A stretch of 64,000 nt of DNA, taken from contig CM034550.1 in assembly GCA_020055645.1 (NCBI GenBank), forward strand, positions 14,769,001 to 14,833,000, in the 5' to 3' direction. The notes under the pieces are model-generated. The model was not told the origin of the DNA and did no database searches. It saw nothing but the letters and a program-made list of their open reading frames with translations. Shown here piece by piece: positions 20,201 through 60,164 of this stretch. The stretch is from Tomocerus qinae. Taxonomy: Eukaryota > Arthropoda > Collembola > Entomobryomorpha > Tomoceridae. A program made the position numbers and the translations under genes. How positions within the stretch are numbered: position 1 is the first letter of the stretch; every line of letters starts with the position of its first letter.

Positions 20201-20355
20201 ACATTGCAAGCGATGTATTTCTAAATTAAATGACTGTATTTCGTTTATATCCCCTATGATCAGGTTTCGTTTGATTAGCCAATGATAGAGTGAAGAACTA
20301 CAGTACCCATCCCTTTATAACATTACATATCCAGCAATTTCAAAGTTCGTAAGCA

Positions 20356-34800: not shown

Positions 34801-35995
34801 CCTAAGAAATATTTATAAGCTGAGGCTGATTAATCCTATATAGATAAAAATCAAGTCAAGGAAAAATGGTCGAAGTGACCAAAAAATTAAAAAGTGGGTA
34901 GCCGCTGCAAAACGATTTAGAAATTGTAGAGCTTTATACGTAATAAATCAAAGCTCTTCTGTGGACGAAGACATGAGCAGAGCTTGATATTCTTCTTTGT
35001 TTGGAATGATTTGTACTCCGTTGCCATTCAGCTGATGTGACTCAATCTGTATATCAAGGGAGTCGGAAGAATCCCGAAAGTCCTGGTTATTTATAAACCT
35101 AAAGATCAAATCACTGTAGTCAACATACTTGTCAATTAAGAATTACTAGAGGATGCACCACCACCATGACCATAAAAACCTTATGATTCTTTAGGGCACT
35201 AAAATAATATAATGTATGTTCTAATTTATGTGTCAAATATGTAAAAACATTTGCAAACAAAATGCTTACTAATTGATGCCATAAAATATTCGTGGCTGAG
35301 TTTGAGTGGGCAAAGTTGCATTTTACAATAATGTGCATGAGAAAAAAAGCATTGACCAAATAAATACCCTATTTATTGATTGTTAGATAAAATAGATAAA
35401 AGCAACATAACAAAGCATTAATAAAAATTACAATATCAATAATAAATATGCAGAATCAACTAAATAATAAAACGTTTGGGTTTAGGTATTACATTATCTA
35501 TTAAGTAAATCGGACTAGTAGTGTATTGATATTGAACCATGAAGTTCCTACCATTTGCACTCATTTACATTTTTTTGTGTTGAGTTATGACCAGGAGGTG
35601 ATAGAGAAGAAAATATTACACATAGCCATTGAAGATCGACATGTCCTTACAAATTGAATTGGAGATAAAATTTTGAATCATTATCTTTTCTTTCACTTTT
35701 CTGTCTCGATTTTAAGATCAAAAACGTAAGTTTTTGATAATTACGATTTTTTATTACAATGCGCTATTTTTTCTTCCCGATTACCTTATGGTCGTAACTC
35801 AATAATCGACACAATCCTTTCTCCAGTAGTTCCGGAAGGTGGATAAAACGAAAAGGGTATTCTGAGCATATAACATTAATGTTTTTAAAGCTTAAACGTT
35901 CTTTATATGTTTTCGTATTCGGTACCTAGCAAACAATTTTACATTACAATTTGAAAGTATTTAAAATAGACAGTATTGAGCTCCTACTTCCATTT
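31830..35995. other. Intergenic region, no gene recognised
   Basis: AT-rich, with ORFs of at most 75 codons and no domain signature on either strand. The first 350 bp are probably the 3' UTR of the F-box gene. No RNA gene or strong inverted repeat was recognised up to the foldback element. Confidence 0.45.
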
Positions 35996-36196
35996 TCACC
36001 GAAAGTGTCACCGACCCCCTCCGATTACGACCAAAATCGCTGAGCATATGTCTAAAATAGAGTAATTAACGAAATGGACCTTCAAAATTTTTTAAAAAAT
36101 AAGAGGGGGCGTGGGGGGTAAGGGGAAGCTTTTCCATTGGGAAGAAAGATTGTGACCAAACGGTAAGTCATAAAATTCTTTAGTTTTTTTCTAAAA

Positions 36197-37773
36197 CTAG
36201 TAATAGGCCCGTTCTCCGAACGGGAAACAAATACAATGCTTATCGAATCAGCATAATAATAGTGAACCAAATTCAACATCATTTAACTAAACACCGAAAT
36301 TAAAGCAAATGTTGAGTTTCATTATATTATCATTAATACTATATGGACATAATATTTTAAATCACCCCGTCAGTTTACATCACCCCGCGTCGTTTTCAAT
36401 TACCCCATCATTGTAAATAGACGTCATTTTAAATAACCCCGTCATTTTAAAAAACCCTGTCGTTTTAAATAACCCCGTCATTTTAAATAACCCCGTCATT
36501 TTAAATAACCCCGTCATTTTAAATAACCCCGTCAATTTAAATAATCCGTCATTTCAAACCCCGCCATTTTAAATATACGTGAATTGTTTTGTGAAGAAAA
36601 GAAAGAAATTTTTGCCTTAAAACCCAAAATATTCTATTCCCCCCAAATTTTTTTCTGGCTACGGCCCTAATAAATGACACTGCCATTTTAAATAGACGTC
36701 ATTGTAAACACCCCGTCATTTAAAATAGACGTCATTGTAAATACCCCGTCATTTAAAATAGACGTCATTGCAAATGACCCCGCCATTTTAAATAGAAGTC
36801 ATTGTAAATGACCCCGTCATTTTAAATAGACGTCATTGTAAATGACCCCGTCATTGTAAATGACCCCATCATTTTAAATAGACGTCATTGTAAATGACCC
36901 CGTCATTTTAAATAGACGTCATTGTAAATGACCCCGTCCATTTAAATAGACGTCATTGTAAATGACCCCACATTTTAAAAAGACATCATTGTAAATAACC
37001 CCGTCGTTTAGAATCACCCCTTCATTTTGAATAACTTCGTTGTTTTAAATCTATAAATGTCATTTTAAAACATCTCGTCATTTTAAATAACCTCGTCATT
37101 TTAACATTCCTGCCATTTTAAATATTCCCGTCATCTTAAATATTAAGTCATTTTCACCTCATCATTTTAAGTAGCTGTGTTATTTTAATTAGCTACCACT
37201 ATTTTAATCGTCATCGTTATTTCTATCTATTTTCTCACCCCGTTGCATTAACTAATTAATTCTGTGTCAAGTCAAGTCAACCTGTTCAATCCACAACCAA
37301 ATGATACAAACTAAATAAACATCGCCTTGCTATTAATAGTTTGACTCCGTTGCGGTCGCCCCGTTCGAGGTAAAAGGGACTAATCCCTTTACATAGCGGA
37401 GACCTGCCTGCTTAAAGAGTAAGACTTTGTCAAATTTTTGAAATTCATTGGCAAAATATTTTCTACTAAAAATTAAAAAACTGAAGTGGCTACCGTCTTC
37501 ATTATTAAGTCGAGTAAGTCAGGAAAAAGTTTGGTAAAGATCGGATGAAAACTGTAGGAGGAGTATTTGAACAAAACGTGACAAATCGGAGCGTTTTCTC
37601 CCACTCCTTCAATGTTAAAATTCGAAATTCAAAAAATCGTAAAACCATTTCTATGAAAGATATCATTTTGAAACTCGAGGTTTGGGGTTCTGACTATGAT
37701 GTGCCCATCCAGTAAAAATTTGAAAGTCGTAGATTGATGTTAAAGGGGAAATGAATTGCTATTATTATATAGA
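36197..37773 (-). mobile_element. Non-autonomous Helitron, 1,577 bp
   Basis: On the minus strand the insertion starts TCTATATAATAATAGC (37773 downwards) and ends CTATTACTAG at 36197. It therefore has the TC 5' end and CTAG 3' end of Helitrons. Eleven bases before the 3' end lies a GC-rich hairpin, CCCGTTC-GGA-GAACGGG. The intact right arm of the surrounding foldback element gives the empty site CTAAAA^TAGCATAG: the insertion is exactly between A and T, without target duplication, the Helitron hallmark. There is no Rep/helicase ORF. The interior contains a minisatellite. Confidence 0.93.
36361..37175. repeat. Minisatellite, 17-18-bp and 34-bp units, inside the Helitron
   Basis: Many tandem, slightly degenerate copies of CCCCGTCATTTTAAATA. 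The middle (about 36690-37000) alternates with AGACGTCATTGTAAATGA to form a 34-bp higher-order unit. Internal minisatellites are common in non-autonomous Helitrons. Confidence 0.9.
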
Positions 37774-38063
37774 TAGCATAGATAGGTGCTTCATCCTGGC
37801 AAGGTATAAATTTTATTCAATTCGAATATTTTGGCGCGAAAAAAAATCGGTGAACCTGAAATTAGCAATAATTCAAACATTGTGGGTTGAAAATGGCACA
37901 TATCGACTAAATATTGAATATAAAAGATGCTAGATCATCTTAAATCTCCTTTCTAAGCAAGAACAAGGTTACATGTCCAAAATTTATTAACCCCTGTCCG
38001 GGGAAGCGGGGGCGAGATAAGTTTGGATATTTAATTTCTCAAAATCTATTACGCCTAAAGACT

Positions 38064-39205
38064 TTAAACCACCGCCAAACAACTCAGCATCATGTAATGC
38101 ATCATGGCAAGGTGGTGTATTGTGTGTCACCCCACCCCCTGAGGGGTGTGTAGGGGAGGCTTAAGTTTAGAATCCCAATATCTCCAAAACTATTTGACTT
38201 ACGGACTTGAAACTACCGCCAATCAACTCAGCATCATGTAATGCATCATGGCATGGTAGTATATTGTGTGTTTCCTAACCCCCTTGTGGGGGTGTAGGGG
38301 AGGCTTAAGTTTGGAAACCCAATATCTCCAAAACTATTCGACGTACGGACTTGAAACCACCGCCAAACAACTCAGCATCATGTAATGCATCATGGCAAGG
38401 TGGTGTATTGTGTGTCACCCCACCCCCTGAGGGGGGTGTAGAAGAGGCTTAAGTTTGGAAAGCCAATATCTCCAAAACTACCAAACGTACGGACTTGAAG
38501 CTACCGCCAATCCACTCAGCATCATGTAATGCATCATGGCATGGTAGTATATTGTGTGTCACCACACCCCCTGAGGGGGGTGTAGGGGAACCCAATATCT
38601 CCAAAACTACTCAACGTACGGACTTGAAACTACCGTCCATCAACTCAGCATCATGTAATGCATCATGACATGGTAGCAGGGTAGCCCTCAGTGGGTGTGG
38701 TGACACACAATATGCTACCATGCCACGATGCATTACATGATGTTGAGTTGATTGGCGGTAGTTTTAAGTCCCTACGTTGATTAGTTTTGGATATATTGGG
38801 TTTCCAAACTTAAGCCTCCCTTACACCCCCACAAGGGGGTGAGGAAACACACAATATACTACCATGCCATGATGCATTACATGATGCTGAGTAGATTGGC
38901 GGTAGTTTCAAGTCCGTACGTTGAGTAGTTTTGGAGATATTGGGTTTCCAAACTTAAGCCTCTCCTACACCCTCCTCAGGGGGTGGGGCGACACACAATA
39001 TACTACCATGCCATGATGCATTACATGATGCTGAGTTGATTGGCTGTAGTTTTAAGTCCGTACGTTGAGTAGTTTTGGAGATATTGGGTTTCCAAACTTA
39101 AGCCTCACCTACACCCCCCTCAGGGGGTGGGTGACACACAATACACCACCTTGCCATGATGCATTACATGATGCTGAGTTGTTTGGCGGTGGTTTAAAGT
39201 CTCTA
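38064..39205. repeat. Inverted arrays of about 130-144-bp tandem units at the foldback core
   Basis: In the left half, the motif AACTCAGCATCATGTAATGC recurs at 38091, 38225, 38369, about 38512 and 38642. Each copy is followed by a GTGTCACC...CCCCTGAGGGG stretch. The right half carries the same units in reverse complement (for example around 38745, 38885, 39030 and 39170). Each unit itself contains short palindromes such as CCCCTGAGGGG. Confidence 0.88.
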
Positions 39206-39867
39206 GGCGTAATAAGTTTTGAGAAATTAAATATCCAAACTTATATCGCCCCCGCTTCCCCGGACAGGGGTTAATAAATTTTGGACATGTAACCTTGTTC
39301 TTGCTTAGAAAGGAGATTTAAGATGATCTAGCATCTTTTATATTCAATATTTAGTCGATATGTGCCATTTTCAACCCACAATGTTTGAATTGTTGCTAAT
39401 TTCAGGTTCACCGATTTTTTTTCGCGCCAAAATATTCGAATTGAATAAAATTTATACCTTGCCAGGATGAAGCACCTATCTATGCTATTTTAGAAAAAAA
39501 CTAAAGAATTTTATGACTTACCGTTTGGTCACAATCTTTCTTCCCAATGGAAAAGCTTCCCCTTACCCCCCACGCCCCCTCTTATTTTTTAAAAAATTTT
39601 GAAGGTCCATTTCGTTAATTACTCTATTTTAGACATATGCTCAGCGATTTTGGTCGTAATCGGAGGGGGTCGGTGACATTTTCGGTGATAACGAATACAC
39701 GGGCCCTATTGGAAACTGTATCACCACTCCATAGAGAGAAAACCAGTTAAATAAACTTTACGAGGGAAGAACTTAGCTTATAAATATACTACCTAATACT
39801 TAGTCACACAATAAATTTAGCTTAGCTATACCATGTGTTAGTAGTTTTAAAAAGTTTATAAGAGGTA

Positions 39868-42435
39868 CTACTGCTTATCAATATCAACATAACCATACCT
39901 ATAACCACCTTCTGCCAACAAAGACTCTCGATGATTTCTCTTTCTAGACACCATCAGGGACATAATTCCAAGCAAAATAGTAAGACCAAGAATTAGAGCT
40001 GCACCTAAAAATAAATAAGTTATGTTATCAAGGATTATTTAACTATTTCTGGAGAATGGCAACATTGGCAATGATGCAGGCAATAACAATGAATGACAAT
40101 TTTTTATCTTACCGAAAACCCAACCTACTGGGCTTGTAATGCTGAAGCCTTTCTTTGCTAAAATAGTGCTGACGTGAGCTAATGTCCCATTGTTAGGCGG
40201 CATAGATAACTTCATAATTTTGCAGATCAAAGGATACAAATCAATATTCTCGAAAGGTGATGCTTCGTATCCAGATTTGAAAAGTGGCCCATGTGCCACA
40301 AAGAATGGATGCATAGGCATCAACAAGTTGTCATATCCATGAGCTCCGTACACATTTGTCGGATTGGCTAAATTAGAAAACACTTAATGAATCAATGATA
40401 CACAAAATGAACAGAAAATCTTCAGAGAAATTATTACATATTTTAGTAGTAGAACAAACAAATAATTATTTGACATGTTAGAAGCACGTATTTAGTAGGG
40501 GATGGGGGGGGGGGGCGCAGCGCCCCCCTAAATCTGAGAAAAGGAGAATTTTTTTCTCAAAAATAGCCTAAAATTGCAAAATTTTTTCGCGGTTCGCGCG
40601 AATATGTCTTATTCTTGGTATAATTTTTGCTTCCGCCCCCTTGAACAAATTTCTAGATATGTGCCTGTTAGAACACATTTTAATTCAAAATATGCAGCAA
40701 TGTATTTATTTACCTGTTCGATTATACTTTTTGTTATAGGAGTCCATACTTTCATAAAAGTCATCGAAGACATATCCCAAATCAGCGACTAGAATTATTG
40801 GCATAATCCTGCGATTCTTTGAGTAATGCCAATAAGGTGGAATTTCTTCGTTTTTGTAGACTTGGAAATTGTTTCCTTGTGAAGCCTTTTTAAATGCGTT
40901 ATAAACTTCATCTAGTTTTCCTGAGAGGACAATTAATGGCAATTCCATAATTAATTTGTGGTAATACTAATAAAATAAATGATTTTTACTATGATAATCT
41001 ATTGATAGAAATAAATTCTACCTTCTTTTGGATTTATCTGGAGCATTGGAGAAGATCCGTATCTATCATAGAAAGATTTATCAATGATATGTGTCGTATT
41101 TATTATATGATCCTGGCGGACTTCCTGAAAACCATGATCACTTAAAAACATCAAATTCACACGATTGAAGATGCTGAGATTCTTCAACTTTCTTATAAAA
41201 TATCCTGTAATGTTGTCTAGCCTCTCGATTTGTTTGATGGCTTCTGGAGACTCAGGACCGAAGCCATGAGCATATTCATCTGGTTCTTCGAAGTACATGT
41301 AAACCAAGTTTAGAGGATTTTCCTTATCGGTTATCCAGGATATAACTTGGTCAACGCGCCACTCAAATGGCAAGCTACTATTCCAGCTTACCATACGATA
41401 AGGTAATGTATTCTTGACTCCGTATGGATGGTTTGACCCCGGCCACATCATCACCCCACTTCTTCGACCCTCTCCCTCCAATTCATTTACAATCTGAAAA
41501 AAAAATCTTTATTATTCACTATTGTATTCATTTAATTATTAATACTTTATTTTTTGAACTTCAATTCGGTTTATGTAAAATAAATAGTATACATAATCGA
41601 TCAATTATACATCATAATATTATTACTTACCCAAAGGGGCAAGGTTGTGTTATCGAAATTCCACATTTCTTCGTCAGCTACGTTCAGTGTTTTATTTAGT
41701 ACTGGATCGTAAAACCAATTGTCAACTACTCCATGAGCTTCTACATACAATCTAAAAAGGAAATAAATTAATAAATAAAGAACTTTGCCATTATCAAGAT
41801 AATTAAGAATGAATTTATTAAAATGAATTTGATACCGCGATTATAAACATATATCTAGCACACAACTCACCCGGTAGCGATGGACATGTGGTTTGGAAAC
41901 CTGGGCATATGAACACAATTTTAATGATAATCAAAGATGTAAAAGTAGAGATGATATTACTAATAATGCTTAATATTTGGACAACTTACGAGTATTTGAC
42001 ATTTTACGACTAGTGAGTGAGTTACACTACTTACGTTTTAGTCAAAAATTGATTTTTCATGTAAGGCACATGGCTTCCAGATTTCTTCAATCGATCTAAA
42101 TTAGGGGTTCCATTTTCCGGTTTATCAAAATAGTTATAACGGAATCCATCTAAGGTAAATACAAGTAGTTGTATTTATTAGCACTTTGTACCGCAGGCAA
42201 ACGCCTGGTAATTTTCATTATAATGCTTTATAATTTAATTTTATCAATTGGCATTATGAATTTTGTTTTACTTACCAAAGGATACCACAATCAATACAGG
42301 GTATTCTGATAAAGTCACATTGTTTTGCGGGGCACTTCTATCACTTGGCTCCGGTTTTTCATTGTAGGCTACTATACTGACAATATGGAATGTCATAAGA
42401 CATACCACTGATGACAAGGACAAATCCAACTTCAT
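39868..42435 (-). CDS. Ectonucleotide pyrophosphatase/phosphodiesterase, ENPP4/5-like
   Basis: Eight exons (42435..42276, 42149..42035, 41900..41871, 41751..41631, 41493..41022, 40920..40714, 40367..40113, 40004..39868) encode 498 aa. A hydrophobic signal peptide starts the protein and a membrane segment (about residues 455-473, AALILGLTILLGIMSLMV) precedes a short basic cytosolic tail, giving a type I ectoenzyme. All active-site groups are visible: Asp54 (VSFDGF), nucleophile Thr92 (KTFPNH), Asp214 and His218 (EEPDEYAHG), Asp261/His262 (SDHGF) and His378 (GAHGYDN). These bind two zinc ions and hydrolyse phosphodiester or pyrophosphate bonds of extracellular nucleotides. Several N-glycosylation sequons occur. 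Length and tail fit ENPP4/5 (about 450-480 aa) rather than ENPP1-3, since there are no somatomedin or nuclease-like domains. The exact substrate is not deducible. Confidence 0.95.
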
Positions 42436-44671: not shown

Positions 44672-47600
44672 TTATTTGTATCTCTGTTGGCACTGTTGGC
44701 TTTGTGTGAATGGTACAGATTTAACGGAAGAACCTTTGCTTTTTTTCATAAAATGGCGATTATTTTTGATGTTTGTCACAGCGTTCATAAATGCCGAATT
44801 TTCATCATCCCCGTATCCTGCAAATTAAGCAAAAAAGAATAGTCACCAAAATCAACGACCATTTGTACTTTTGCATTGCCTGGAATATTTAAAAACTTTT
44901 CGGCCACTTACCATAGCTAAATACTTCTGAAATATTCGTTTCTTCATTTTCATCGCCGTCATTGCCCTTTGATATAGTAATCAATGAAACACACTGATCT
45001 TTAATAAGGGTGTCCTCAATCTTCAATTTCCTTTGAGTGACATAGGTTATTGCTTCGAGAGCCAAAATAAAATCTGGATTGTCCAAATCAGTAACTACAA
45101 TTACAAACAAAAAAAACAAATACCACCAAATAAAAATAATAGTCGCACTTTAGTCTTTGGTAACGGTTATATGTAACGATTTCTATTTCTTACAGAAAGA
45201 TGTACAAAGCTTTTCTTTAAAACTCTGGAAGACTTCGGTCCCTGCTTCTTCCCTAACAGATTGCTCCCTTTTATTATCCTCTTCAGCAGGTAATAAGTGG
45301 CAGTATCTGCTTCCCACAGTAAGATTCCACTGCCTTATCACGGACAAATCATCCCTAGCCTGCTTATTAATCTTCCTGCTTTCCAGGGCATTAACTTCCA
45401 TTTCATTTTTCAGCATTCCAAATTTATTAAATATATCAGCACACTTTTTCAGCTTCTCTTGGGCAGTTTTCTTCAAAACCTTTTCTTCTTCTTTCATGGC
45501 ATGAACTTCCTTACCATAATTTGCGACAACATCTTCTGCACGATTTATAGCGTCATTTTGCAATGACGCGAGTTTTGCAGTAATTTGTGCGGTACATTCA
45601 TTATGAATTGTGTTAATTGCCTCTTTGTAATGGTTCATAAGCTTCTCATTCTTCTCCAACAAGCGTTCGGCGCCTTCCGTCAGTAGAGTCACAGCTCTCC
45701 GCTCTACTTTTATATCCGCTTCTAGTTTAGTTTCTCTATCTTTTATTTCCTAGTTCAAAAATAAATAGTACAATAAGGCAATAAGAGAACTTGTAAGAAA
45801 TCTGTACAAATATATTTGACATCATGTACTTAAATTTTAGCAACGTTAAATTGCATTAAGTGCAAGTGAATTTATAAGTTATAAGCATCTATGTAATAAA
45901 AATATGTTGATAATGTTCAAATATTAACATATTATAACAATTAATGCGTATATAAAAAAGGAATGTACCTATAAATATAAATAAATATTAAAAGAATGTA
46001 CACATAAATATAAATAAATATTAAAAGAATGTACACATAAATATAATTAAATATTAAAAGAATGTACAGATGAATGTAAATAAATGTTAATAGAATGTAC
46101 AAATGAATACAAATAATTGTAAATAAATATTAACGGAATGTACAAATGAATGTATACATAAATGTATATAATAAATAAATTATGTTTAAATACAACAAAA
46201 GTAACAGAGTTACCTTTAAAGTTGTTTCATTTGTTTTCATTATCTTATATGCATCGTCCAAATCTCTTACAGCGTTAGCATTATTCTAAAATACAAATTA
46301 GATAAGCCTAATTTAGTATTTCCTTAATTGGTGACATACCAATGCAATGCAATGCCCTTCAAACTTTTCTTAAGGTTGAAACCAGTTTTACCATATTTAA
46401 ATCTGCAATTGACTGATTCGCATCCCTGAGTAGTTCATTCATTGTATCTTTCTGCAATTGCAACTCGTTCAGTTGAAACTTACAGTCCTAGAAAAATTAT
46501 AAAGGTTTATGGAAAATTACAAATAAATAAAATATTAACACAAACATTGAAAGTTGAGGAAAAACCTTTAAATCTGCTTCTTTTGTTTTTATCATCTTAT
46601 TTGCATCTTCCAAATCTCTTACCAACTTAGCATTATCCTATGACATAAAAAAGCGTTCGTTAGTTATTCCTTAACTGTTTACATATATCCAAAGTCTAAA
46701 TGTATGCTTCTTTATTATTGAAATCAGTTTTACCATCCGCAATTCTGCAATGGACTGATGCGAAATTTTCAGTAGTTTATTCAGATCGTCTTTTTCCGAT
46801 TGAAACTGATCTTGCTGGAACTTCAACTCCTGGGAAAAAATATTTAGGTCAATGAAGAATTACTAATAAAGTAGCTAGAACAATTAAAAATGGCATACAC
46901 ATTCAAAATTAATATTGTCATTAATTATAAAACCTGTTCACGAAAACAATTTGAAAACACGAAAGTACGTTTAATTACTTCGCTACCGTCAGTAAATTTA
47001 ATAGTATTTATATTATGGAATTAAAAGTACATGATATTCGTCATCACGAGTTTTGTATAACGTTTGTAACTCCGTCATTGTGGCTGTTAATTTTTCGACA
47101 GTATCAGAGAAACTCTCGGCATCGCCTTTTAGTTCTTTTATTTCCGCTTGCAATTCCTTAAATAGAAAAAAATTGTCATGGTGGATTTAAATTAAACATT
47201 GAAACGAATAACATGCTTTACTAAAAAATTAAACCTTTTGGCATGCTTACAGAAATTAGGTTAGATTTTCCAACATTATCAATAAAACATGCTTCGTATT
47301 GCTGCAATTGTAAATAAAACATTAGATTCTTTAGTAATTATTAATCATCAATCAATTTACCAATTAAAACAATCGAAAAAGAGTAAAAAGTAAGAGATCA
47401 CGCAGGCTGGGAACCGATTGTAACAGACGAAGTTGACAATTTCAACATCTACTCTACTTTAGGATATGAAAAAACTAATTTCTCGAATTTTTTTTAAAAT
47501 CCGCTGTTTTTTTTGAGTTATGGCGGTTTTTATTCAAACATTTTACATGAGAGTAATTTCGAAACTACTTAACCCATTTTCACGAAACTAGTGTCAAAAT

Positions 47601-50600
47601 CATCGCAAGTCTTTTGTCTACTTACATGGTGATCGCGATAGTGTATGAATGCAGAAAGTTTGTAAGGCTTTCCTATACATTAACTCATAAACTATTTTAT
47701 TAACAATTAAATACTACAATGATTTACATAAATCAGTTATCAAAAAGTGATTTAGCAGTTATTCAGTAACTGTCTCAGGAGTTCGTGCTACTTTCATCGT
47801 AGATTGCAGAGAACTGAGTAAGACCCCAGATCAAGGCGGGCTAAATTTCTATAGTGACGCTTGTTTTGCTTATAGACAGGTGGGGAAAGGACCTTTATAT
47901 CGGTGGACAAACTCTGGGACAAAAATATGAATTTTTGTCCCAGCAGTCCCGTCCCCATCTTAGATGCCTGGTATGCATATTTCTCATATTAACAGGCGTC
48001 TATTGTCCATTGCTGGAATTAGCGAAGGTTAGGTGGTGTGCTGTCAAGTGTTGCACAAATTTAAAAGGTAGCCCTTCTGCTACAGTATTTTATTTTCCAA
48101 GCGTACAAGAAGAATGCATGGTTGGATGTTGTGCTTTGTTGTGGAGTTTTTAAATCGAACCTCGCTAATTTTGGCGTCTGTAAATTGCATTTTATATTTA
48201 CATGATTTTATTATTCCGAGTTTGCGGTGGCTCCCGGCTAAAACATTTTTTCGTGGAACTTCCTCAGTCAAATTATATCCTAGGCTTTTCAGTTAATGGA
48301 TTCGTTGACTACTTATTTAGGTGTCGCATTTATAATTTAGAAGTGCCTATTTCAGATTGAACTTTCTCAAGAAGTTCGCTGGGCTTAATCTCTGAGGTTC
48401 ACATGGGGTCAGGTCAATGAGTTTGGAGGAACTGAGAATGAGATTGAGGATCATGATCACTGAGCAACTCCCATTGCCCCGGAGCGGAGGCTGGAGTATG
48501 GACTCCGTTTGAAAATCTTTGATAACCAGTGACTAAAATGACCGGCCGGTTGAAATGTAGATTGAGTAGATTAATAGTGTCGATTTCAGAATGGCCCCCT
48601 AACTCACGCCTGTGGGTTAGGGGGCCAATGAGTCAAGTTGTACAGTGGATTATAAAAATTTAGCACATTCCCTGCTGCCCAGTGAGGCTCGAGTTGGAGT
48701 GAGAGCGTGGAGTGGAGTATGGACGAGGACAAGTAGGGAACGAGAATTTCACTATTTATTTAATTATTTCTGAAAACAAATTACAGTTAAGCTCTCAGAA
48801 TTTCCACCTCTATATATTCGTACTTTAGCATTTAGGGACTTGAAATTGTCATAAAACGAGGTTATTAAAGTCTTTTTCATTGGTGGATGCATTTTGCCAA
48901 TGGGATTGCAGATTTCCATGATTGCAATTGTTGCGTGTTCCATTGCATAGATTGCATCGTGAGTTTAATTTGTTGAAAATTTTACGTTAATCTCGATACA
49001 TAAGTATTAAGTACTTCAAATTAATTGGAAACTAAATGACTATTAATTTTTATGGTAATCTCTATGATCATTCGAATGAAAATTAGTTCCTAACTGAATT
49101 TGGATTGGTACCATGAGCTGGGACGATCCGTCCCAGAGTTTGTCCTTATCATTTCAATGGTAATATAGAGTCCTTTCCTCACCTGTGTGTTTACAATAAA
49201 TGTATTGCTATAGAAATTAAGCCCACCTTGCCCCAGATAAAGTGTCACTTCCTTTTCACTTCCTCCGCAAAGGATCATGCATAAATAAAACAAGTGCGTT
49301 GCCCCAGGTGAGGAGATTTTGAATTTTAGACAAAATTAGTAACTGAATAGTCCTCTTTTCAGGAGGAAGTGAAAAGGAAGTGACACTTTAACTAGGGTCT
49401 AAACAAGGTGGGCTTAATTTCTATAGCAATACATTTATTGTAAACACACAGGTGAGGAAAGGACTCTATATTACCATTGAAATGATAAGGACAAACTCTG
49501 GGACGGATCGTCCCAGCTCATGGTACCAATCCAAATTCAGTTAGGAACTAATTTTCATTCGAATGATCATAGAGATTACCATAAAAATTAATAGTCATTT
49601 AGTTTCCAATTAATTTGAAGTACTTAATACTTATGTATCGAGATTAACGTAAAATTTTCAACAAATTAAACTCACGATGCAATCTATGCAATGGAACACG
49701 CAACAATTGCAATCATGGAAATCTGCAATCCCATTGGCAAAATGCATCCACCAATGAAAAAGACTTTAATAACCTCGTTTTATGACAATTTCAAGTCCCT
49801 AAATGCTAAAGTACGAATATATAGAGGTGGAAATTCTGAGAGCTTAACTGTAATTTGTTTTCAGAAATAATTAAATAAATAGTGAAATTCTCGTTCCCTA
49901 CTTGTCCTCGTCCATACTCCACTCCACGCTCTCACTCCAACTCGAGCCTCACTGGGCAGCAGGGAATGTGCTAAATTTTTATAATCCACTGTACAACTTG
50001 ACTCATTGGCCCCCTAACCCACAGGCGTGAGTTAGGGGGCCATTCTGAAATCGACACTATTAATCTACTCAATCTACATTTCAACCGGCCGGTCATTTTA
50101 GTCACTGGTTATCAAAGATTTTCAAACGGAGTCCATACTCCAGCCTCCGCTCCGGGGCAATGGGAGTTGCTCAGTGATCATGATCCTCAATCTCATTCTC
50201 AGTTCCTCCAAACTCATTGACCTGACCCCATGTGAACCTCAGAGATTAAGCCCAGCGAACTTCTTGAGAAAGTTCAATCTGAAATAGGCACTTCTAAATT
50301 ATAAATGCGACACCTAAATAAGTAGTCAACGAATCCATTAACTGAAAAGCCTAGGATATAATTTGACTGAGGAAGTTCCACGAAAAAATGTTTTAGCCGG
50401 GAGCCACCGCAAACTCGGAATAATAAAATCATGTAAATATAAAATGCAATTTACAGACGCCAAAATTAGCGAGGTTCGATTTAAAAACTCCACAACAAAG
50501 CACAACATCCAACCATGCATTCTTCTTGTACGCTTGGAAAATAAAATACTGTAGCAGAAGGGCTACCTTTTAAATTTGTGCAACACTTGACAGCACACCA

Positions 50601-52984
50601 CCTAACCTTCGCTAATTCCAGCAATGGACAATAGACGCCTGTTAATATGAGAAATATGCATACCAGGCATCTAAGATGGGGACGGGACTGCTGGGACAAA
50701 AATTCATATTTTTGTCCCAGAGTTTGTCCACCGATATAAAGGTCCTTTCCCCACCTGTCTATAAGCAAAACAAGCGTCACTATAGAAATTTAGCCCGCCT
50801 TGGGTCTAAATGATCATAATTTTGTGCTTAGGTACTAGATTTGTAAATTAAACAATTGTAAGCTATGGAAACATAATAGGTAATACTAATTCGCAGAACC
50901 ACATGGTAATTTCAAAACATTTTTCAAAAATCCAAAATTTCGAAAAAAATTCGAATATTTTTATGCGCTGAAGACGACTTTACAACTGCATTATAAGTTT
51001 TCATAAACTCAATGCACTATAATATTCGAATTAAAAACATTTTTCGAAATTGTTTCAAAATGTTTCAAAATTTTAGTTTTGAAAAATTTTTTGAATACAC
51101 CATGTAAGAGACAACAGTCTGCGATGATTTTGGCACTAGTTTCGAGAAAATTGATATTAAGTAGTTTCGAAATTACTCTCACGTAAAATGTTTGGTTAAA
51201 ACACAAAACTCAAAAACAGCGGATTTTTTTTAATTCAAGAAATTAGTTTTTTATATACTCATATCCTTAAGTAGAGTAGATGATGAAATTGTCAACTTCG
51301 TCTGTTACAATCGGTTCCCAGCCTGCGTGATCGTGATCTCTTTTGTTTTCACTCAAAAACTACTCGAATGTTAGTTATAAAAACAGCTAATTATGAGTAC
51401 TACCTTTCAAAGTGGTAATTCCATACATGCCACATGTTAATTAGCACTAAGTCCTAACTGCACTACCATATCCAACTTACTACCCTCGTCCAACCGGCCA
51501 ACCGTATGTATTTTTAAAATTACCTGAAAAATGTTTCCCTTTTCATATTCAAGTAAATTAATCTTTTCTATCAGAATTCCATGTTTTTGATTCCACTCTT
51601 CTTCCATAGCGCACTTACTCTGTAACAATAAAATTTTATTTCCTTCATGAAAACAAATAGTCGATATCTGTATTACCTTGGACATCTAGTGTATCTGCAG
51701 GTTTTAAGTGAATTTGATGGCGGGATCCTTCGTATCATGAAGATATTCATCACTAAACACAGTACATCACTAAATACAGTGATGAATATCTTCATGATAC
51801 GAAGGATCCCGCCATCAAATTCACTTAAAACCTGCAGAAACACTAGATGTCCAAGGTAATACAGATTTCGACTATACTATTATTGCCAATGAATACAAAA
51901 TTAACTACTGATAGCCTAAAACTAAAAACACAATACCCATACCTTGCATGCGCTCAGATCCATGTTGCATATAGTTGATAGTATAAATAAATGTGTAAAG
52001 ATTATAAGCGTAAAAAATATCGCATCGTAGTACGGACGGACCCACAACTCACAACTATGCATAACAACTACGTTTATTACCTGTTTAAGGCTTCTATTTT
52101 CATTTTCAAGAGAACTAATTTTGTCCAGATAGCGACTCCATTCAAGAGGAGCATTCATACACTGCAATAAACAAATATTTTTGTTTTAAGAATGAAAAAC
52201 CAATAGTCGATATCTGTATTACCTTGGACATCTAGTGTGTCTGCAGGTTTTAAGTGAATTTGATGGCGGGATCTTTCGTATCATGAAGATATTCATCACT
52301 AAATACAGTGATGAATATCTTCATGATACGAAGGATCCGCCATCAAATTCACTTAAAACCTGCAGACACACTAAATGTCCAAGGTAATACAGATTTCGAC
52401 TATTAACTTCACTTAAATAATAATTCATAATTACACTTTTAAACACTTGACACTAAGTTAAATCATAGTTGATAGTTAAAAAATTGGTTTGCTTATAACA
52501 TAACAGTTGACAGTATTCTGTGTGATGACATATATATATGACCTATGACCTAACAACTTACTGAAATGTCCCGTTGGACAGATCCTTCGGCTATATTTTC
52601 ACAGATATTTAGATTTAAACATTGGTTATTCGGAACTGAGACCAAAACATCCTCTGGGCTTATAGGTTCTAATTTTAATCGTTGGGTTGACGCGGGGGAA
52701 CTGGTCATCATACCCGGGCTGTTATCATCATAGGCTTTGGGCTTGACCTCGACATCGCTCAGAATATACGATCCGCTGCTATCCGTATCACTTTCTCCTT
52801 CATCGTATAGCAGCGATCGCTTTTTTGAATACAAGATAAAGTGCAAATAAAAAATTAACACAAATGCTGAATGTAATGTCAAATGATAAAAGACAAACAT
52901 TGAACACAGATGATGTCAGATGTAGGATGTCAGAAGCAGGAATATTTTAAAACTTACGCGACCATTATTTTTCGATTCACTCAT
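44672..52984 (-). CDS. Unrecognised coiled-coil protein, copy A (left arm of inverted duplication)
   Basis: Thirteen exons on the minus strand: 52984..52958, 52819..52562, 52161..52081, 51619..51524, 47301..47251, 47156..47031, 46829..46734, 46637..46566, 46487..46392, 46285..46214, 45749..45194, 45094..44912, 44817..44672. They give 619 aa. The first ten exons are all multiples of 3 and in phase 0. The order is a short basic start (MSESKNNGR), an acidic Ser-rich region (GESDTDSSGSYILSDV) with several SP sites, about 230 aa of heptad-like coiled coil, a second charged helix region (residues about 326-500), then a compact C-terminal segment ending MNAVTNIKNNRHFMKK. No enzyme motif. Function unknown; I do not recognise the family. 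Compared with copy B it lacks the equivalents of B exons 7 and 12. The largest intron (51523..47302) holds nested mobile elements. Confidence 0.75.
45940..46180. repeat. AT-rich tandem repeat in intron of copy A
   Basis: Five or so units of about 37-40 bp around TTAAAAGAATGTACACATAA, alternating with ATAAATAAATATT. The matching intron of copy B (58580-58800) has the reverse complement of the same repeat, so it predates the inverted duplication. Confidence 0.8.
48013..48260 (+). pseudogene. Decayed THAP-type zinc finger, left arm
   Basis: In one frame the sequence gives VRWCAVKCCTNLKG then TVFYFP, matching the C-x2-4-C half of a THAP domain. In the next frame it continues KKNAWLDVVL and VCKLHF, the C-x2-H half with the conserved Trp. 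A frameshift near 48105 separates the halves, and stop codons follow. THAP domains are the DNA-binding modules of P-element-type transposases and of host THAP proteins. I infer a relic of a P-like transposase; nothing of the catalytic domain is visible. Confidence 0.6.
48593..48627. repeat. GC-rich hairpin in THAP element (left arm)
   Basis: TGGCCCCCTAACTCAC and GTGGGTTAGGGGGCCA pair around a 4-base loop, with one G-T pair. The mirror copy lies at 50007-50041. It is one of the few GC-rich segments in the arm. Confidence 0.65.
50374..50621 (-). pseudogene. Decayed THAP-type zinc finger, right arm
   Basis: Mirror copy of the left-arm stretch, with the same frameshift and stops. The damage therefore predates the copying, or homogenisation, of the two arms. 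Confidence 0.6.
51659..51873. mobile_element. 215-bp hairpin MITE, copy 1
   Basis: Almost the whole element is one inverted repeat, from AGTCGATATCTGTATTACC inwards. It is flanked by AT on each side. The other arm of the gene duplication (near 56213-56223) has the sequence without the element (AATAGTATTTG), so the insertion post-dates the duplication and duplicated only AT. Confidence 0.9.
52205..52401. mobile_element. 197-bp hairpin MITE, copy 2
   Basis: Same family as 51659-51873, with a shorter loop that makes a nearly perfect hairpin. It is flanked by AT (52203-52204 and 52402-52403). The empty site in copy B, GAAGTTAATTGG near 55941, again shows a 2-bp AT duplication. Confidence 0.9.
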
Positions 52985-53329
52985 ACTGATGAGAAGTTAA
53001 CACCCAACAATTTTTGACGAATAATTATTTTAAATCGGCTGACCTTTTCACCCTTGCTAAAAATGAAGAACAAGAAATTGACAGAAGATTGAGACGGATT
53101 ATTAATGCAACATGGAACTTGGAACTGAAAAATGGAATGACAAATGGAATCTACAACTCTGCTCTGCGCTTGCTCAAAAAGGCTCATGAGCTGATATGAG
53201 AGATATACTTGGGAGACGAATAGAAGCCTAAGCTGGTCTTCCTCTTTATCTACCCAATGCCTTCCCACCAGACACCCGACAGTGGCCAAATCCTTCCCAC
53301 CCCACACCCGACAGCTTACAATCCAACAC

Positions 53330-53792
53330 CCGATGCCCAACCAACCGACGCCTTCCCACCCGACAACTGACGCCCTTCTACCCGACATTTACATTTTTTT
53401 AAACTTAAAATTTCATCATGTAAATTATTTTGCTTATGAGAGTGGCTATGAAACTATGTCTGCCTAAGTCTGACACTTGTCACTGACATGACACTGACAC
53501 TTATCTCTTCAAATAGTTGACGGTAAAATAGTCCCTAACTGTCAAGTAACCCAAAATTATTAAATAGTCTAAACTTTAGACTCTAAGGTTTCTGGCAATC
53601 CGATTTCCCAACTCAAGTTTAGATTTAGGCCTCCAAGAAATATGGGAAACACTTAGGCAGACATAGTTTCATAGCCACTCTCACAAACAAAATAATTTAC
53701 ATGATGAAATTTTAAGTTTAAAAAAATGTAAATGTCGGGTAGAAGGGTTTCAGTTGTCGGGTGGGAAGGCGTCGGGTGTCGGTTGGTTGGTC
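53330..53792. mobile_element. Foldback element rich in CCCACCCGAC motifs
   Basis: 53337-53468 pairs with 53652-53790: CCAACCAACCGACGCCTTCC on the left returns as its reverse complement on the right, and the arms end at CTTAGGCAGACATAG. The loop is about 180 bp. The outer flanks carry further degenerate GACACCCGAC/GTCGGGTGTC units. Confidence 0.75.
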
Positions 53793-54057
53793 ATCGGGTT
53801 TCCGGTAGATGGCTGTCGGGTAGATAGAATGAACCCATCGTGTAAGTGTATTGTAGTATTCTTTCAACATCGATGTTCAGAGAGGATACGATCTTTTCCA
53901 AGGTGATCCATACTCATTGTAGAAAGTCAGGTAGAAAGTAAGGTAACCGATGACATTGTTACCGGAGTGACTACGCCAGTAATCCCTTCCATGCTTACTA
54001 TGGAAACAGCCTAGAGATCATATCCAAAATGACTTTCGTACAGGACAGAAGGGCGTG

Positions 54058-54358
54058 ATCAAGGCAAATAGACTAATTCCCGCTCCCTCCCTCCCCCGCC
54101 CCCTCCCTGGCATCAGGTGGGTTCAGTAGAGGGAGGTCCCATAAGAGAGTTTGAACTTTTATATGGGACTAACAATTTACTCCTGAAGGGTGGGTATCCA
54201 TGGCTACCAGCATCTTAGTCTGGGACCGGAATGGGACTAATTTCAAAAGAAAGTCCCATATAAAATTCAAACTTTCTTATGGGACTTTCTCTACTCTACT
54301 GAACCCACCTGATGCCAGGGAGGAAAACGGGAGGCAAAGAAAGAGTTTATTTGCCTTG
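54058..54358. mobile_element. Foldback element of about 300 bp
   Basis: CCTCCCTGGCATCAGGTGGG at 54102 is repeated inverted ending 54323. Inside, GTCCCATAAG and AGTTTGAACTTTTATATGGG also have mirror partners. The outermost AAGGCAAATA (54061) mirrors TATTTGCCTT (54349-54358). No ORF. Confidence 0.7.
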
Positions 54359-54365
54359 GACGTGA

Positions 54366-54690
54366 CCAAGAAGCATAAACTGTAGTCATAGTGCTGTATA
54401 AGGAGAGTCCAGTAGCGAATTTTGCTATTTAGATTTCTGAAGATTTATAAGGGATTTTTTCTGAGAAAAGTCCCTTACCTATACCTTTGCTATAATATTT
54501 CAACACTGATTATTCCACTCCAGCATCCAAATAATCATTCTGCATTTATTTCGTTTCCAACAATAATATACTAACCACACAAAGTTGGATATTTAGGGAT
54601 AAAATTAGTGAAAAATGTCCCTTATAAACTTTCAAAATCCCTTATGGGAAATTCTGTATTGGACCCTCCATATACAGTTTATGCTTCTTT
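54366..54690. mobile_element. MITE-like inverted-repeat element of about 320 bp
   Basis: AAGCATAAACTGTA on the left mirrors TACAGTTTATGCTT on the right. Next inwards, AGAGTCCAGTAGCGAATTTT resembles the inverse of AAATTCTGTATTGGACCCTC. Two AAGGGA-type motifs are also mirrored. No coding capacity. Confidence 0.65.
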
Positions 54691-54720
54691 AGCGTGGCAT
54701 AGCTTTCACAGGTTAAAATC

Positions 54721-54750
54721 AATTTTACCACACACGTGTGTGGTAAAATT
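54721..54750. repeat. 30-bp perfect palindrome
   Basis: AATTTTACCACACAC is followed directly by its exact reverse complement GTGTGTGGTAAAATT, with no spacer. It includes a CACGTG E-box at its centre. It lies in the promoter region between copies A and B. Confidence 0.95.
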
Positions 54751-55104
54751 GCCCGTACGGTGCGCGGTGTGCCGACAAATCTAACTCTATGTTAAGTTAG
54801 TTATTATAGAAGGGATAGGCTTCCTATCTTTTCTGTACAAAAGAAGTTAGCTGGTGGGGACAATATCGTGCAAAGTGCAGTAATACACAGCAATGTACAG
54901 CGTGCAATCATTTTTGAGCAAGCGCAGAGCAGAGTTGCAGATTCCCTTAGCCATTCCGTTTTCCAGTTCCATGTTGCATAAATAATCTGTCTCACTCAAT
55001 CTTCTGTCAATTTCTTGTTCTTCATTTTAAGCAAAGGTGAACAGGTCAGCCGAATTAAAATAATTATTCCGTCAAAAATTGTTGGGTGTTAACTACTCAT
55101 CAGT

Positions 55105-58100
55105 ATGAGTAAATCGAAAAATAATGGCCACGTAAGTTTTAAAATAAATTCCTACTTCTGACATCCTACATTCATCTGTGTACAGTTGTCAGTGTTTGTC
55201 ATTTATCATTTGACATTCATCATTACATTCACCATTTGTGTTAATTTTTTATTTGTACTTTATTTTGTATTCAATAAAGCGATCGCTGTTATGCGATGAA
55301 GGAGAAAGTGATACGGATAGCAGCGGATCGTATATTCTAAGCGATGTCAAGGTCAAGCCCAAAGCCTATGATGATAAAAGCCCGGGTATGATGACCAGTA
55401 CCCCCGCGTCAACCCGACGATTAAAATTGGAACCTATAAGCCCAGAGGATGTTTTGGACTCAGTTCCGAATAACCAATGTTTAAATCTAAATATCTGTGA
55501 AAATATAGCCGAAGGATCTGTCCAACGGGACATTTCAGTAAGTTGTTAGGTCATAGGTCATATATATATATGTCATCACACAGAATACTGTCAACTGTTA
55601 TGTTATAAGCAAACCAATTTTTTAACTATCAACTATGATTTAACTTAGTGTCAAGTGTTTAAAAGTGTAATTATGAATTACTAGCAGAAAATGTTGAAAT
55701 CAGTAAATTTCTAGCGACTGCGTATTGGCCCGAAATTCATAGACCGTTGATTGGACTCAGTACTGATAGTCTAAGTCTAGTCCTTGCTCATTAATTGCAA
55801 AATATTACCCTTACTCATTAATTACAAAATATTACGGACAAATATACAAACATTAATACATTCAAAAAAAATTCCATGCGCATGTCCCACTTTATGTTTA
55901 AAAGATTACGTTTATGTAGAGTAAAGATTATTTAAGTGAAGTTAATTGGTTTTTCATTATAAAAAACAAAATTTGTTTATTGCAGTGTAAGAATGCTCCT
56001 CTTGAATGGAGTCGCTATCTGGACAAAATTAGTTCTCTTGAAAATGAAAATAGAAGCCTTAAACAGGTAATAAACGTAGTTGTTATGCATAGTTGTGAGT
56101 TGTGGGTCCGTCCGTACTACGATGCGATATTTTTTACGCTTATAATCTTTACACATTTATTTATACTATCAACTATATGCAACATGGATCTGAGCGCATG
56201 CATCATTGGCAATAATAGTATTTGTTTTCATGAAGGAAATAAAATTTTATTGTTACAGAGTAAGTGCGCTATGGAAGAAGAGTGGAATCAAAAACATGGA
56301 ATTCTGATAGAAAAGATTAATTTACTTGAATATGAAAAGGGAAACATTTTTCAGGTAATTTTAAAAATACATACGGTTGGCCGGTTGGACGAGGGTAGTA
56401 AGTTGGATGTGGTAGTGCAGTTATAACTTAATGCTAATTAACATGTGGCATGTATGGAATTACCACTTTGAAAGGTAGTACTCATAATTAGCTGTTTTTA
56501 TAACTAACATTCGAGTAGTTTTTGAGTGAAAACAAAAGAGATCACGCAGGCTGGGAACCGATTGTAACAGACGAAGTTGACAATTTCATCATCTACGAGT
56601 ATATTATGAGAAAACTAATTTCTCGAATTTTTAAAAATATTCGCTGTTTTTGAGTTTTGGGTTTTTAACCAAACATTTTACATAAGAGTAATTTCGAAAC
56701 TACTTAACCGATTTTCACGAAACTAGTGCCAAAATCATCGTAAGTCTGTCGTCTACTTACATGGTGTATTCAAAACATTTCACAAAACAATTTCGAAAAA
56801 CGTTTTTAATTCGAATATTATAGTGAGTTTTTGAAGACTTGTAATGCAGATATAAATTTTTCTAAGTCGTCTTCAACACATCAAAATATTATTCGAATTT
56901 TTTTCGAAATTTTGGATTTTTGAAAACTTTTGAATTTGAATTTGCGACATTCGAGAAATTAGTTTTTTCATATCCTAAAGTAGAGTAGATGTTGAAATTG
57001 TCAACTTCGTCTGTTACAATCGGTTCCCAGCCTGCGTGATCTCTTTACTCTTTACTCTTTTTCGATTTTTTTAATTGGTAAATTGATTGATGATTAATAA
57101 TTACTAAAGAATCTAATGTTTTATTTACAATTGCAGCAATACGAAGCATGTTTTATTGATAATGCTGGAAAATCTAACTTAATTTCTGTAAGCATGCCAA
57201 AAGGTTTAATTTTTTAGTAAAGCATGTTATTCGTTTCAATGTTTAATTTAAATCCACCATGACAATTTTTTTTCTATTTAAGGAATTGCAAGCGGAAATA
57301 AAAGAACTAAAAGGCGATGCCGAGAGTTTCTCTGATACTGTCGAAAAATTAACAGCCAAAATGACGGAGTTACAAACGTTATACAAAACTCGTGATGACG
57401 AATATCATGTACTTTTAATTCCATAATATAAATATTATTAAATTTACTGACGGTAGCGAAGTAATTAAACGTACTTTCGTGTTTTCAAATTGTTTTCGTG
57501 AACAGGTTTCATAATTAATGGCAATATTAATTTTGAATATGTATGCCATTTTTAAATGTAAAGCATTTAATGGATTCATAATATTTAGTAACCTAAGTAA
57601 ATCGTCTACTTGTACTGTTATTTTTGTCACTTAAGGTATCTGAAACTGAAAGGTGTCAGCTGAAAGCTGAAAAAAGCGAACTTTATGAGGCCTTGGATTC
57701 TTTAAAAATGGTAAATGTAATATTATATTTTACATCATTTGGGTAATTAATTTTTTATTTTTGTTATCGTTACTCATGAATTTCGTCTTCTTCTTGTCAG
57801 ACACGTCAATGTTTAACAAGAAGCTATAAAGTAATTTATCAGGAAATTTAATTTCTTCATTCCATTTATTACCTTTTATTGTTCTAAAAACGAGCATTAA
57901 TTGTTCTAGCTACTTTATTAGTAATTCTTCATTGACCTTAATATTTTTTTCTAGGAGTTTAAGTTCCAGCAAGATGAGTTTCAATCGGAAAAAGATGATC
58001 TGAATAAACTACTGAAAAGTTCGCATCAGTCCATTGCAGAATTGCGGATGGTAAAACTGATTTCAATAATAAAGAAGCATACATTTAGACTTTGGATATA

Positions 58101-60164
58101 TGTAAACAGTTAAGGAATAACTAACGAACGCTTTTTTATGTCGTAGGATAATGTTAAGTTGGTAAGAGATTTGGAAGATGCAAATAAGATGATAAAAACA
58201 AAAGAAGCAGATTTAAAGGTTTTTCCTCAACTTTCAATGTTTGTGTTAATATTTTATTTATTTGTAATTTTCCATAAACCTTTATAATTTTTCTAGGACT
58301 GTAAGTTTCAACTGAACGAGTTGCAATTGCAGAAAGATACAATGAATGAACTACTCAGGGATGCGAATCAGTCAATTACAGATTCGCAAATGGTAAAACT
58401 GATTTGAATCATATATAAATTTAAAGGGTATTGGTATTTCACCAATTCAGGAAATGCTAAGGCTTATTTGTATTTTAGAATCACGCTAATGCTGTAAGAG
58501 ATTTGGACGATGCATATAAGATAATGAAAGCAAAAGAAACAACTTTAAAGGTAACTCCTTTACTTTAATGTATTTAAACATCCTTTCTACTTTATATACA
58601 TTTATTTATACATTCATTTGTACAATCTGTTAATATTTATTTACATTTATTTATTATATTATATTCGTTCGTACAATCTGTTAATATGTATTTGCATTTA
58701 TTTATTATATATTTATGTGTACATTCTTTTAATATTTATTTACATTTTCTTTTACATTCATTTTTACATTCTGTTCTGTTAACTGTTAATATTTATATAA
58801 TTATTTTATATACTATGAACTTATTTATTTAGAGTTATGCTCAAGCAATGGACAACGATGCAAAAATGATAAGACATCTGACTGAAACCAATCAGGACCT
58901 TTTGAAGGTAAAATTATAAATGTAAATCTTTGACCTGAAACAAGAGTCATTGAAAACATTTTATTATTGTTTGGTTGAGTTCGTTATATTGGTGTTTTTA
59001 GAAAATTGATGTCATTGGTAAGTATGTGAAATTCATTGAGCCACTTCACCGTTTAGTAGAAAATTGTGGTAATGACAATTTCTCACATGAGAACTGTTCC
59101 CAACGGCTGGAAGAGGATTTCCGTAAATTGTCCCACCATATGTATGATGAAAAGGAGGAATTCCAGAAAGTTTTTCAGAAAAGAAAAGCTTTTCTGCAGC
59201 AAGGGGTAAAAGGCATCAACAACGAAAAAAAGCTAATTGAAAAGATGAAGGAAGATGCTATGTTTTCAGTTGAAGAAATTCACACCCAAGCTAAAAACCA
59301 AAAGGGGTATCTAAGAGAGCTTAAAATGACGCTTGACGAATATACATGTGAGAAAAATTCGGAGATACAACACAATCTAGAAATAGCAGCAAATGAGATA
59401 GAAAGCTACTCAAAAGAAATTCATCAGGTAAATATGGATGAAAAGGAATTAGAAAAGGAGGTCACAAAAAATTCTCTCAGTAACCAATTGAAAGAGTTCA
59501 TGGATGTTGAGAAACGGATTAGTGAAATCTCTTCCAACACCATGGTATTGCGGGATGAAATCAAAGCGGATGTTGCAGAATTGAAATCAATTTTAAATAA
59601 CGAAGTAGAGGAACCTGATGAAGAAGAGGACCTTGAAAATTGCTCATCAACTACGGATTTTGCTCAAAAATTATGCGAAGTGTTCTGTAAGAGACATAAT
59701 AATTATTAATGATGCTGGGTAATATTTTTGTTGTGCATTCTTTATTTTTTTTAGGGGATGACGAAGAAAATCCTAATTATGCATTCGGAATTGAAGCCCA
59801 TAAAATTATGATTCAAAGAAGTTTAAAATTAGAGGAGGTGGTTTTTGGTGATCAATTTGTTTCTTTGCTTGTTATGTCAAAATGTGATGAGCCAGAATCT
59901 ACCTGTTCGAAAGAAACTTTAGCAGTGGGTATGTCACAGCGTTTTATGTCAATGTCACACAAAATATTCATTAGAGTTTAGAGGTGAGGTGAGAGCGAAA
60001 TCCATTACCTCAAAATAATCTAATAAGTAAAATTGACTTTATTTGCAGGTTATGGTAATGACAAGAAGTCTTCATTTATGAATGCTGTGGAAAACATCAA
60101 ATCCAATCGTTTATTCATGAAGAAACGCAATCGGGCAGCGTCTGTAGCCTCGGCTTCAGAATAA
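55105..60164 (+). CDS. Unrecognised coiled-coil protein, copy B (right arm of inverted duplication)
   Basis: Fifteen exons: 55105..55131, 55280..55537, 55986..56066, 56259..56354, 57137..57187, 57283..57408, 57636..57710, 57955..58050, 58147..58218, 58297..58392, 58479..58550, 58833..58907, 59002..59686, 59755..59928, 60049..60164. They give 699 aa. The first twelve exons are phase 0 and carry the same acidic N-terminus and coiled coil as copy A, almost identical in sequence. Exons 8/10 (32 codons each) and 9/11 (24 codons each) are tandem duplicates of one another. Exon 13 encodes a long charged helix ending in an acidic patch (EEPDEEEDLEN). The C-terminus (SSFMNAVENIKSNRLFMKK) is homologous to copy A but diverged. 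AATAAA at 60294 is a likely polyadenylation signal. Function unknown; its build suggests a structural or scaffolding protein. Confidence 0.78.
55681..55927 (-). mobile_element. 247-bp Helitron-like insertion in copy B intron
   Basis: On the minus strand it starts TCTTTACTCTACATAAACG and ends TTTTCTGCTAG. Copy A shows the empty site: GAATTA^TTATTTAAG. The insertion sits between A and T with no duplication and has TC/CTAG ends, all as for Helitrons. The 3' hairpin is weak and AT-rich (GAAAT...ATTTC, 15 bases from the end), so I rate it below the 1.6-kb element. It is unrelated to that element in sequence. Confidence 0.7.
56538..57043. mobile_element. MITE in intron of copy B, orthologous to the one in copy A
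   Basis: Starts GAGATCACGCAGGCTGGG and ends with the inverse CCTGCGTGATCTC. The inner boundary of the right terminal repeat is shortened relative to the left, so this copy has an internal deletion. It occupies the same intron (between exons 4 and 5) as the interrupted element in copy A. Confidence 0.85.
58580..58800. repeat. AT-rich tandem repeat in intron of copy B
   Basis: Repeated TTTATTTACATTTATTTA and ACATTCTTTTAATAT motifs, the inverse counterpart of the array in copy A at 45940-46180. Close identity of the two arms ends just beyond this repeat. Confidence 0.75.

Follow-up and report, generated by a model that had tools for sequence, protein, structure and literature searches.

Probable gene conversion between the mirror-image arms of a coiled-coil gene pair in Tomocerus qinae

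In Drosophila, the palindromic Hsp70 and Amy gene pairs are described as cases of ectopic gene conversion between mirror-image paralogues, with the argument that deleterious products of crossing over count for little when paralogues form a palindrome, while conversion continues to make the copies alike (PMC3924832, in its passages on these pairs). We analysed a 64,000-nucleotide stretch of Tomocerus qinae DNA (hereafter the window), which lies on contig C5 of the searched genome (334 Mb in 115 contigs) and carries two genes for long coiled-coil proteins placed head to head, L on the minus strand and R on the plus strand. A third member of the family, located on contig C4, is called the C4 gene. 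Like the Hsp70Aa/Ab and Hsp70Ba/Bb pairs as presented in those passages, L and R appear to be old, linked mirror-image paralogues kept alike by conversion; unlike them, L and R are alike only in their 5' two-thirds, introns included, their 3' ends are deeply diverged, and their protein has no match to a known family. Amy-p/Amy-d is likewise a mirror-image pair in which homogenisation has distinct boundaries, but the same passages confine the concerted evolution of Amy to coding sequence, whereas in L and R homogenisation takes in the proximal 5' flank and the introns, together with a mobile element, and ends inside the gene. The pair is a new instance of this known pattern, which is here limited to a single module of a protein whose family is unrecognised. 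None of the titles listed in our literature searches, made without a gene name because the protein has none, deals with such a pair encoding this protein.

We consider it probable, to judge from the sequence comparisons below, that the mirror-image arms of an old paralogue pair have undergone repeated ectopic conversion, by which the fronts of the two genes were recently homogenised. L and R belong, as old and diverged paralogues, to a family of which three members were found in the genome, and they sit head to head. Their inverted arms would have been repaired from each other many times over, leaving tracts of differing age. The youngest tracts would lie mostly between introns 2 and 9 and the oldest at both edges, and the 3' ends would have escaped conversion by being already too different for pairing. 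When examined as mirror-image paralogues under conversion, the two genes proved to be linked and inverted, to be older than their identity suggests, and to contain an over-long tract of identity.

Extent and divergence of the inverted arms

Self-comparison by BLAST recovered the inverted arms in several pieces, the five longest of which are 87-98% identical; four pieces have an expectation value (E) of 0.0, and the similarity is therefore far beyond chance. The close match begins about 190 bp 5' of each ATG and runs to R intron 11 (approximately R58763 and L45990). Past these points, DNA identity in a gene-wide alignment is 37-62% per 150 columns, the value of 62% being reached where the last exon begins, and the non-homologous centre gives a baseline of 40-45% in the same alignment. 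The distal introns of the two genes do not align. An earlier note, made from the letters of the window, had described a giant inverted duplication spanning 44672-60164, with the exons and introns of one gene recurring in inverted order in the other. The arms are real, and exons and introns do recur over the front two-thirds of the genes, but the similarity stops in R intron 11 and the description is wrong for the 3' third. Comparison of the region with its own reverse complement, which the note had proposed, accordingly yields inverted matches but not a gene-wide mirror image. In the whole genome, a DNA search with the exon 1-2 region gave two matches, R and L themselves, and a protein search found near-identical matches to the arm exons at these two genes only.

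The start codons given in the note, 52984 (minus strand) and 55105 (plus strand), are borne out by the spliced models, in which every intron begins with GT and ends with AG and each frame has a single terminal stop. The recurrence of the 5' flanks and the likeness of the first exons hold as well: between L and R, 6 residues are different in exon 2 (86 codons) and one in exon 3 (27 codons), and exon 4 (32 codons) encodes the same residues in both. The other 32-codon exons, R8 and R10, are not identical to their L counterparts. L has no counterpart of R exon 7 or R exon 12 (25 amino acids each). At the position of exon 7, the junction in L is a TTAA, and the same TTAA is found at both ends of the R segment that carries this exon.

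Divergence along the arms is patchy rather than a smooth gradient, with the youngest sequence mostly in the middle and the oldest at both edges. Our main count covers five aligned blocks with 107 differences in 2793 bases; outside the blocks lie the segment with exon 7, the large insertions and parts of three introns (the middle of R intron 2, 16 bases of intron 3 and about half of intron 4). The 5' flank differs at 13/189 positions (6.9%), exon 1 with intron 1 at 6.3% and exon 2 at 3.5%. The stretch from intron 2 to intron 9 has 1.5% (26/1730); beyond it, exon 10 stands at 5.2%, intron 10 with exon 11 at 9.6% and intron 11 at 14.2% (29/204). Intron 3 shows no difference in 176 bases. A uniform rate along the arms is rejected (chi-square p = 4.6e-18), also when the 5' flank and the stretch from intron 10 through intron 11 are left aside (p = 3.7e-4) and when the middle piece of intron 4 is added (p = 3.5e-18). 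The longest run free of differences extends over 402 columns (R55991-56408, 16 unaligned bases omitted); in this test, which omitted intron 11, the longest such run among 5000 permutations was 391.

These figures bear on the simplest alternative, a single recent inverted segmental duplication in which the DNA from the 5' flank to intron 11 was copied beside an old paralogue and fused to it in one step. One event is the most economical account, and the similarity does stop inside an AT-rich stretch of intron 11. Such an event predicts uniform divergence, however, and the non-coding pieces range from 0 to 14%; it also requires that the copy landed in frame, in the matching intron of the paralogue and in the correct orientation. 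We regard a duplication of this kind as unlikely. Conversion between the arms, as the earlier note had proposed, is favoured over it because the divergence is patchy and the tails are old.

The matching part of exons 1-11 (10 exon pairs, 975 nucleotides, with the partnerless R exon 7 omitted) contains 9 synonymous and 22 non-synonymous differences, giving a synonymous divergence (dS) of 0.047 and a non-synonymous divergence (dN) of 0.029. Insertions or deletions (indels) are absent from these exons, against 31 substitutions, and the cleanly aligned intron pieces have 12 indels of less than 60 bases against 32 substitutions (Fisher p = 0.001). The rate of change in the recent exons (31/975) does not differ from that in the introns (32/1385; p = 0.2), so that the exons are not slower. 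The reading frames of the recent exons are thus maintained, and their residues are under loose constraint.

Diverged 3' ends and a third family member

The 3' ends of L and R are related at a much greater depth. Over the tail and the final 10 residues encoded by the large exon before it, 49 of 105 aligned residues are identical, with dN of 0.49 and saturated dS (3.2); the last two exons of R and L align with a score of 195, which none of 500 shuffles reached. Positive selection alone was rejected as an account of the difference between the tails, because the distal introns are unalignable and dS is saturated too.

The C4 gene was located by searching the genome with the C-terminal part of L, which gave two adjacent weak matches (E 0.125 and 0.37). 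Its last three exons start in phases 0, 1 and 1, as do those of R and L, and its tail box is related to theirs: in the last two exons, identity is 44/90 (49%) between R and L, 34/87 (39%) between R and C4, and 39/84 (46%) between L and C4, each score being reached by none of 300 shuffles. The split between the R and L tails therefore appears nearly as deep as the split from the unlinked C4 gene. The comparisons show the tails, at the level of sequence, to be old paralogues and the 5' two-thirds to be recent copies of each other. The C4 gene is unlike L and R in its exon number and protein length, and the genome search with its protein found no near-identical partner. Searching the genome with the complete C4 and R proteins revealed no further convincing family member.

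These searches, and the one with the C-terminal part of L, returned several minor matches as well. Residues 180-269 of the L C-terminal part match eight places on contigs C1 and C3 (E 1.2-7.8, 32-34% identity) that sit in open frames 366-1947 codons long; they may represent a repeated element or chance. The whole C4 protein matched coil-like places on C1, C4 and C13 (E 0.005 upwards), and the whole R protein one further place at E 9.4.

A second alternative takes the pair as a recent inverted duplication of the full-length gene, in which one copy later acquired its 3' end from a different, diverged member of the family. It would account for the head-to-head symmetry about one centre, and the large exon of R is still similar to that of the C4 gene (score 125, 0/300 shuffles), unlike the large exon of L, whose score is reached by 137/300 shuffles. 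It calls for a donor with an L-like 3' end, and the genome searches found none; beyond the left arm, moreover, nothing can be aligned to the R 3' end except the diverged tail. We hold such a replacement to be improbable, more so than the single partial duplication.

Several observations weigh against repeated conversion between the arms. The gradient of divergence is not clean: within the core, intron 7 and exon 8 differ at 7 of 154 positions, and the middle of intron 4, which is not part of the main count, shows 25/292 differences and is more diverged than the remaining core. The uneven divergence could partly come from local mutation rates, repeats or the low complexity of intron 11. The 31 exon substitutions fall at the three codon positions in the numbers 10, 10 and 11, with no third-position excess, and selection on the recent part would therefore be weak or mixed. 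In the 3' part, the score of 64 between the R and L large exons was reached by 25/500 shuffles and exceeded by the reversed sequence (67); since this exon is not clearly above chance, a common origin over the full length rests on the tail, the exon phases and the C4 gene. In that gene neither the N-terminus (shuffles reach the score in 37/300 cases for R and 70/300 for L) nor the coil (5/300 and 2/300, respectively) is clearly matched. Finally, the comparison involves one haplotype of one genome, and the usual proofs of conversion are shared polymorphism and the comparison of orthologues.

Two clocks thus run in the gene pair: that of the front two-thirds is recent and that of the back is saturated, and a tree or a date derived from the whole gene would consequently mislead.

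The encoded proteins

The earlier note had called the product an unrecognised coiled-coil protein, and both parts of the description are upheld. By our own simple heptad score, none of 200 shuffles reaches the value obtained for R, L or C4, and single-sequence structure models of the R and L middle exons are long and nearly all helix (mean predicted local distance difference test score, pLDDT, of 66.8 and 83.0 for the two). A pair of exons of 32 and 24 codons, together 56 residues or 8 heptads, is tandemly doubled in both genes (R 57955-58550, L 46829-46214). R exons 8-9 and 10-11 are identical at 66/96 and 56/72 nucleotides, and the C4 gene has this exon pair once. The coiled-coil lengths differ among the paralogues R, L and C4; the conserved length taken as a mark of synaptonemal transverse filaments would be expected among orthologues.

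With curated cut-offs, Pfam-A contains no family for R, L or C4. Below the cut-offs, ATG16 (E 2.8e-4, L), VAPB_antitox (E 9.7e-4, R) and CENP-F (E 0.0055, R) were rejected as what look like coiled-coil resemblances. Sequence searches of the PDB gave no significant match to a solved structure for the C-terminal parts (best E 0.33) or the tail profiles (best E 0.15), and no match for whole R at E up to 1.

From their sequences, L and R are predicted to be filamentous coiled-coil proteins with a common N-terminal and first-coil module and with distinct distal coils and C-terminal boxes. Both proteins are presumably used, in view of the conservation of the tails and the lack of indels in the recent exons. 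A nuclear structural role would be a guess from the basic C-terminus. A possible likeness to the transverse filament of the synaptonemal complex is a lead only. The locus is a compact case in which conversion between arms may be merely mechanical or may keep one module common to diverging proteins. In a more speculative extension, which we consider doubtful, selection would favour keeping the N-terminal and first-coil module alike by conversion, so that L and R could pair or share partners, and the distal coils and C-terminal boxes would specialise. The locus would then supply one shaft with two different ends, and the filament family would be lineage-specific and fast-evolving.

Central spacer, insertions and neighbouring features

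The note had also suggested that the two genes share a divergent promoter. By convention, a bidirectional promoter has less than about 1 kb between transcription starts. The two ATGs are 2120 bp apart, each gene has its own copied upstream flank of about 190 bp, and dispersed elements lie between them; a shared promoter is thus unsupported. The elements in the spacer have at least 62 genome matches, the window's own counted in and the best 40 of 1704 candidates scored.

The dispersed element of intron 4 has at least 170 genome matches (best 40 of 178 candidates scored) and sits in both arms; introns and other non-coding DNA were therefore copied along with the exons. The large insertion in L intron 4 consists of two 1399-nucleotide copies of a dispersed terminal-repeat element with 100% identical arms. 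This element has at least 67 genome matches (best 40 of 301 candidates scored), and the other full-length copies among those listed are 85-98% identical. The pair may reflect recent palindrome formation or a matter of assembly. Its 173-nucleotide spacer holds, by eye, an additional 28-bp inverted repeat. The perfect palindrome lends something to the idea that the whole mirror image is an assembly artefact, produced by a fold-back or a haplotype misjoin. The arms, however, differ at 107 of 2793 bases, in several insertions and in exon content, and have distinct 3' ends and flanks, and we judge an artefact very improbable. Coordinates of all features are given in Table 1.

Table 1. Features of the gene pair and of the third family member (positions in the window, unless a contig is named)
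Feature	Position	Strand	Remarks
Gene L, coiled-coil protein	52984-44672	-	13 exons, 619 amino acids; spliced model open to stop, GT-AG junctions
Gene L exons 1-7 (high to low)	52984-52958, 52819-52562, 52161-52081, 51619-51524, 47301-47251, 47156-47031, 46829-46734	-	
Gene L exons 8-13 (high to low)	46637-46566, 46487-46392, 46285-46214, 45749-45194, 45094-44912, 44817-44672	-	
Gene R, coiled-coil protein	55105-60164	+	15 exons, 699 amino acids; spliced model open to stop, GT-AG junctions
Gene R exons 1-8	55105-55131, 55280-55537, 55986-56066, 56259-56354, 57137-57187, 57283-57408, 57636-57710, 57955-58050	+	
Gene R exons 9-15	58147-58218, 58297-58392, 58479-58550, 58833-58907, 59002-59686, 59755-59928, 60049-60164	+	
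Left arm, putatively homogenised inverted repeat	45990-53180	-	Broken up by L-only insertions; self-BLAST and repeat finder
Right arm, putatively homogenised inverted repeat	54911-58763	+	Self-BLAST and repeat finder
Core of right arm	55538-58296	+	26/1730 different; 51/2022 (2.5%) with the intron-4 middle piece
Old, diverged 3' third of L, exons 11-13	44672-45749	-	Tail dS saturated, dN 0.49 against R; shuffles
Old, diverged 3' third of R, exons 12-15	58833-60164	+	Exon 12 without counterpart in the L model
R segment carrying exon 7, missing in L	57552-57896	+	Gene-wide alignment
Central spacer, no homology between arms	53181-54910	.	Self-BLAST; dispersed-element search
Two dispersed elements in central spacer	~54059-54359 and ~54366-54689	.	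Genome search
Local inverted repeat in central spacer	53306-53821	.	Self-BLAST
L-only insertion, intron 4	47832-50802	.	2971 bp; two head-to-head 1399-nucleotide element copies, 173-nucleotide spacer
L-only foldback element, intron 3	51657-51875	.	Self-BLAST, repeat finder, alignment
L-only foldback element, intron 2	52203-52404	.	Same family as 51657-51875 element; self-BLAST, repeat finder
Dispersed inverted-repeat element, R intron 4	56523-57059	.	Parts present in L intron 4 too
C4 gene, third family member	C4:6362998-6365470	-	Modelled here; 9 exons, 445 amino acids

Elsewhere in the window, a Pfam search identified three genes. A DHHC palmitoyltransferase gene (20353-27189, plus strand) has its match in 20944-21402 and a nucleotide pyrophosphatase/phosphodiesterase gene (40039-41508, minus strand) in 40999-41508, the wider extents being set by eye, as was the extent of an F-box protein gene (30240-31829, plus strand). 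A second mirror-image structure occupies 36354-39691. It includes a minisatellite-like array (36354-37154); a 144-bp tandem array lies at 38060-38676 and 38685-39205, as two halves inverted to each other, and the segments 35993-36196 and 39488-39691 are 99% inverted copies of each other. TTAGG repeats (184 forward and 216 reverse, with 0 and 0 in the control) and COX1-like copies readable in the invertebrate mitochondrial code suggest an arthropod source. Outside the window, a long stop-free COX1-like stretch (invertebrate mitochondrial code) was found at C1:36670928-36672268, within a 140-Mb contig, and is either a recent nuclear mitochondrial insertion or a misassembly; the other COX1-like places returned by that search either are shorter or contain TAA or TAG stops.

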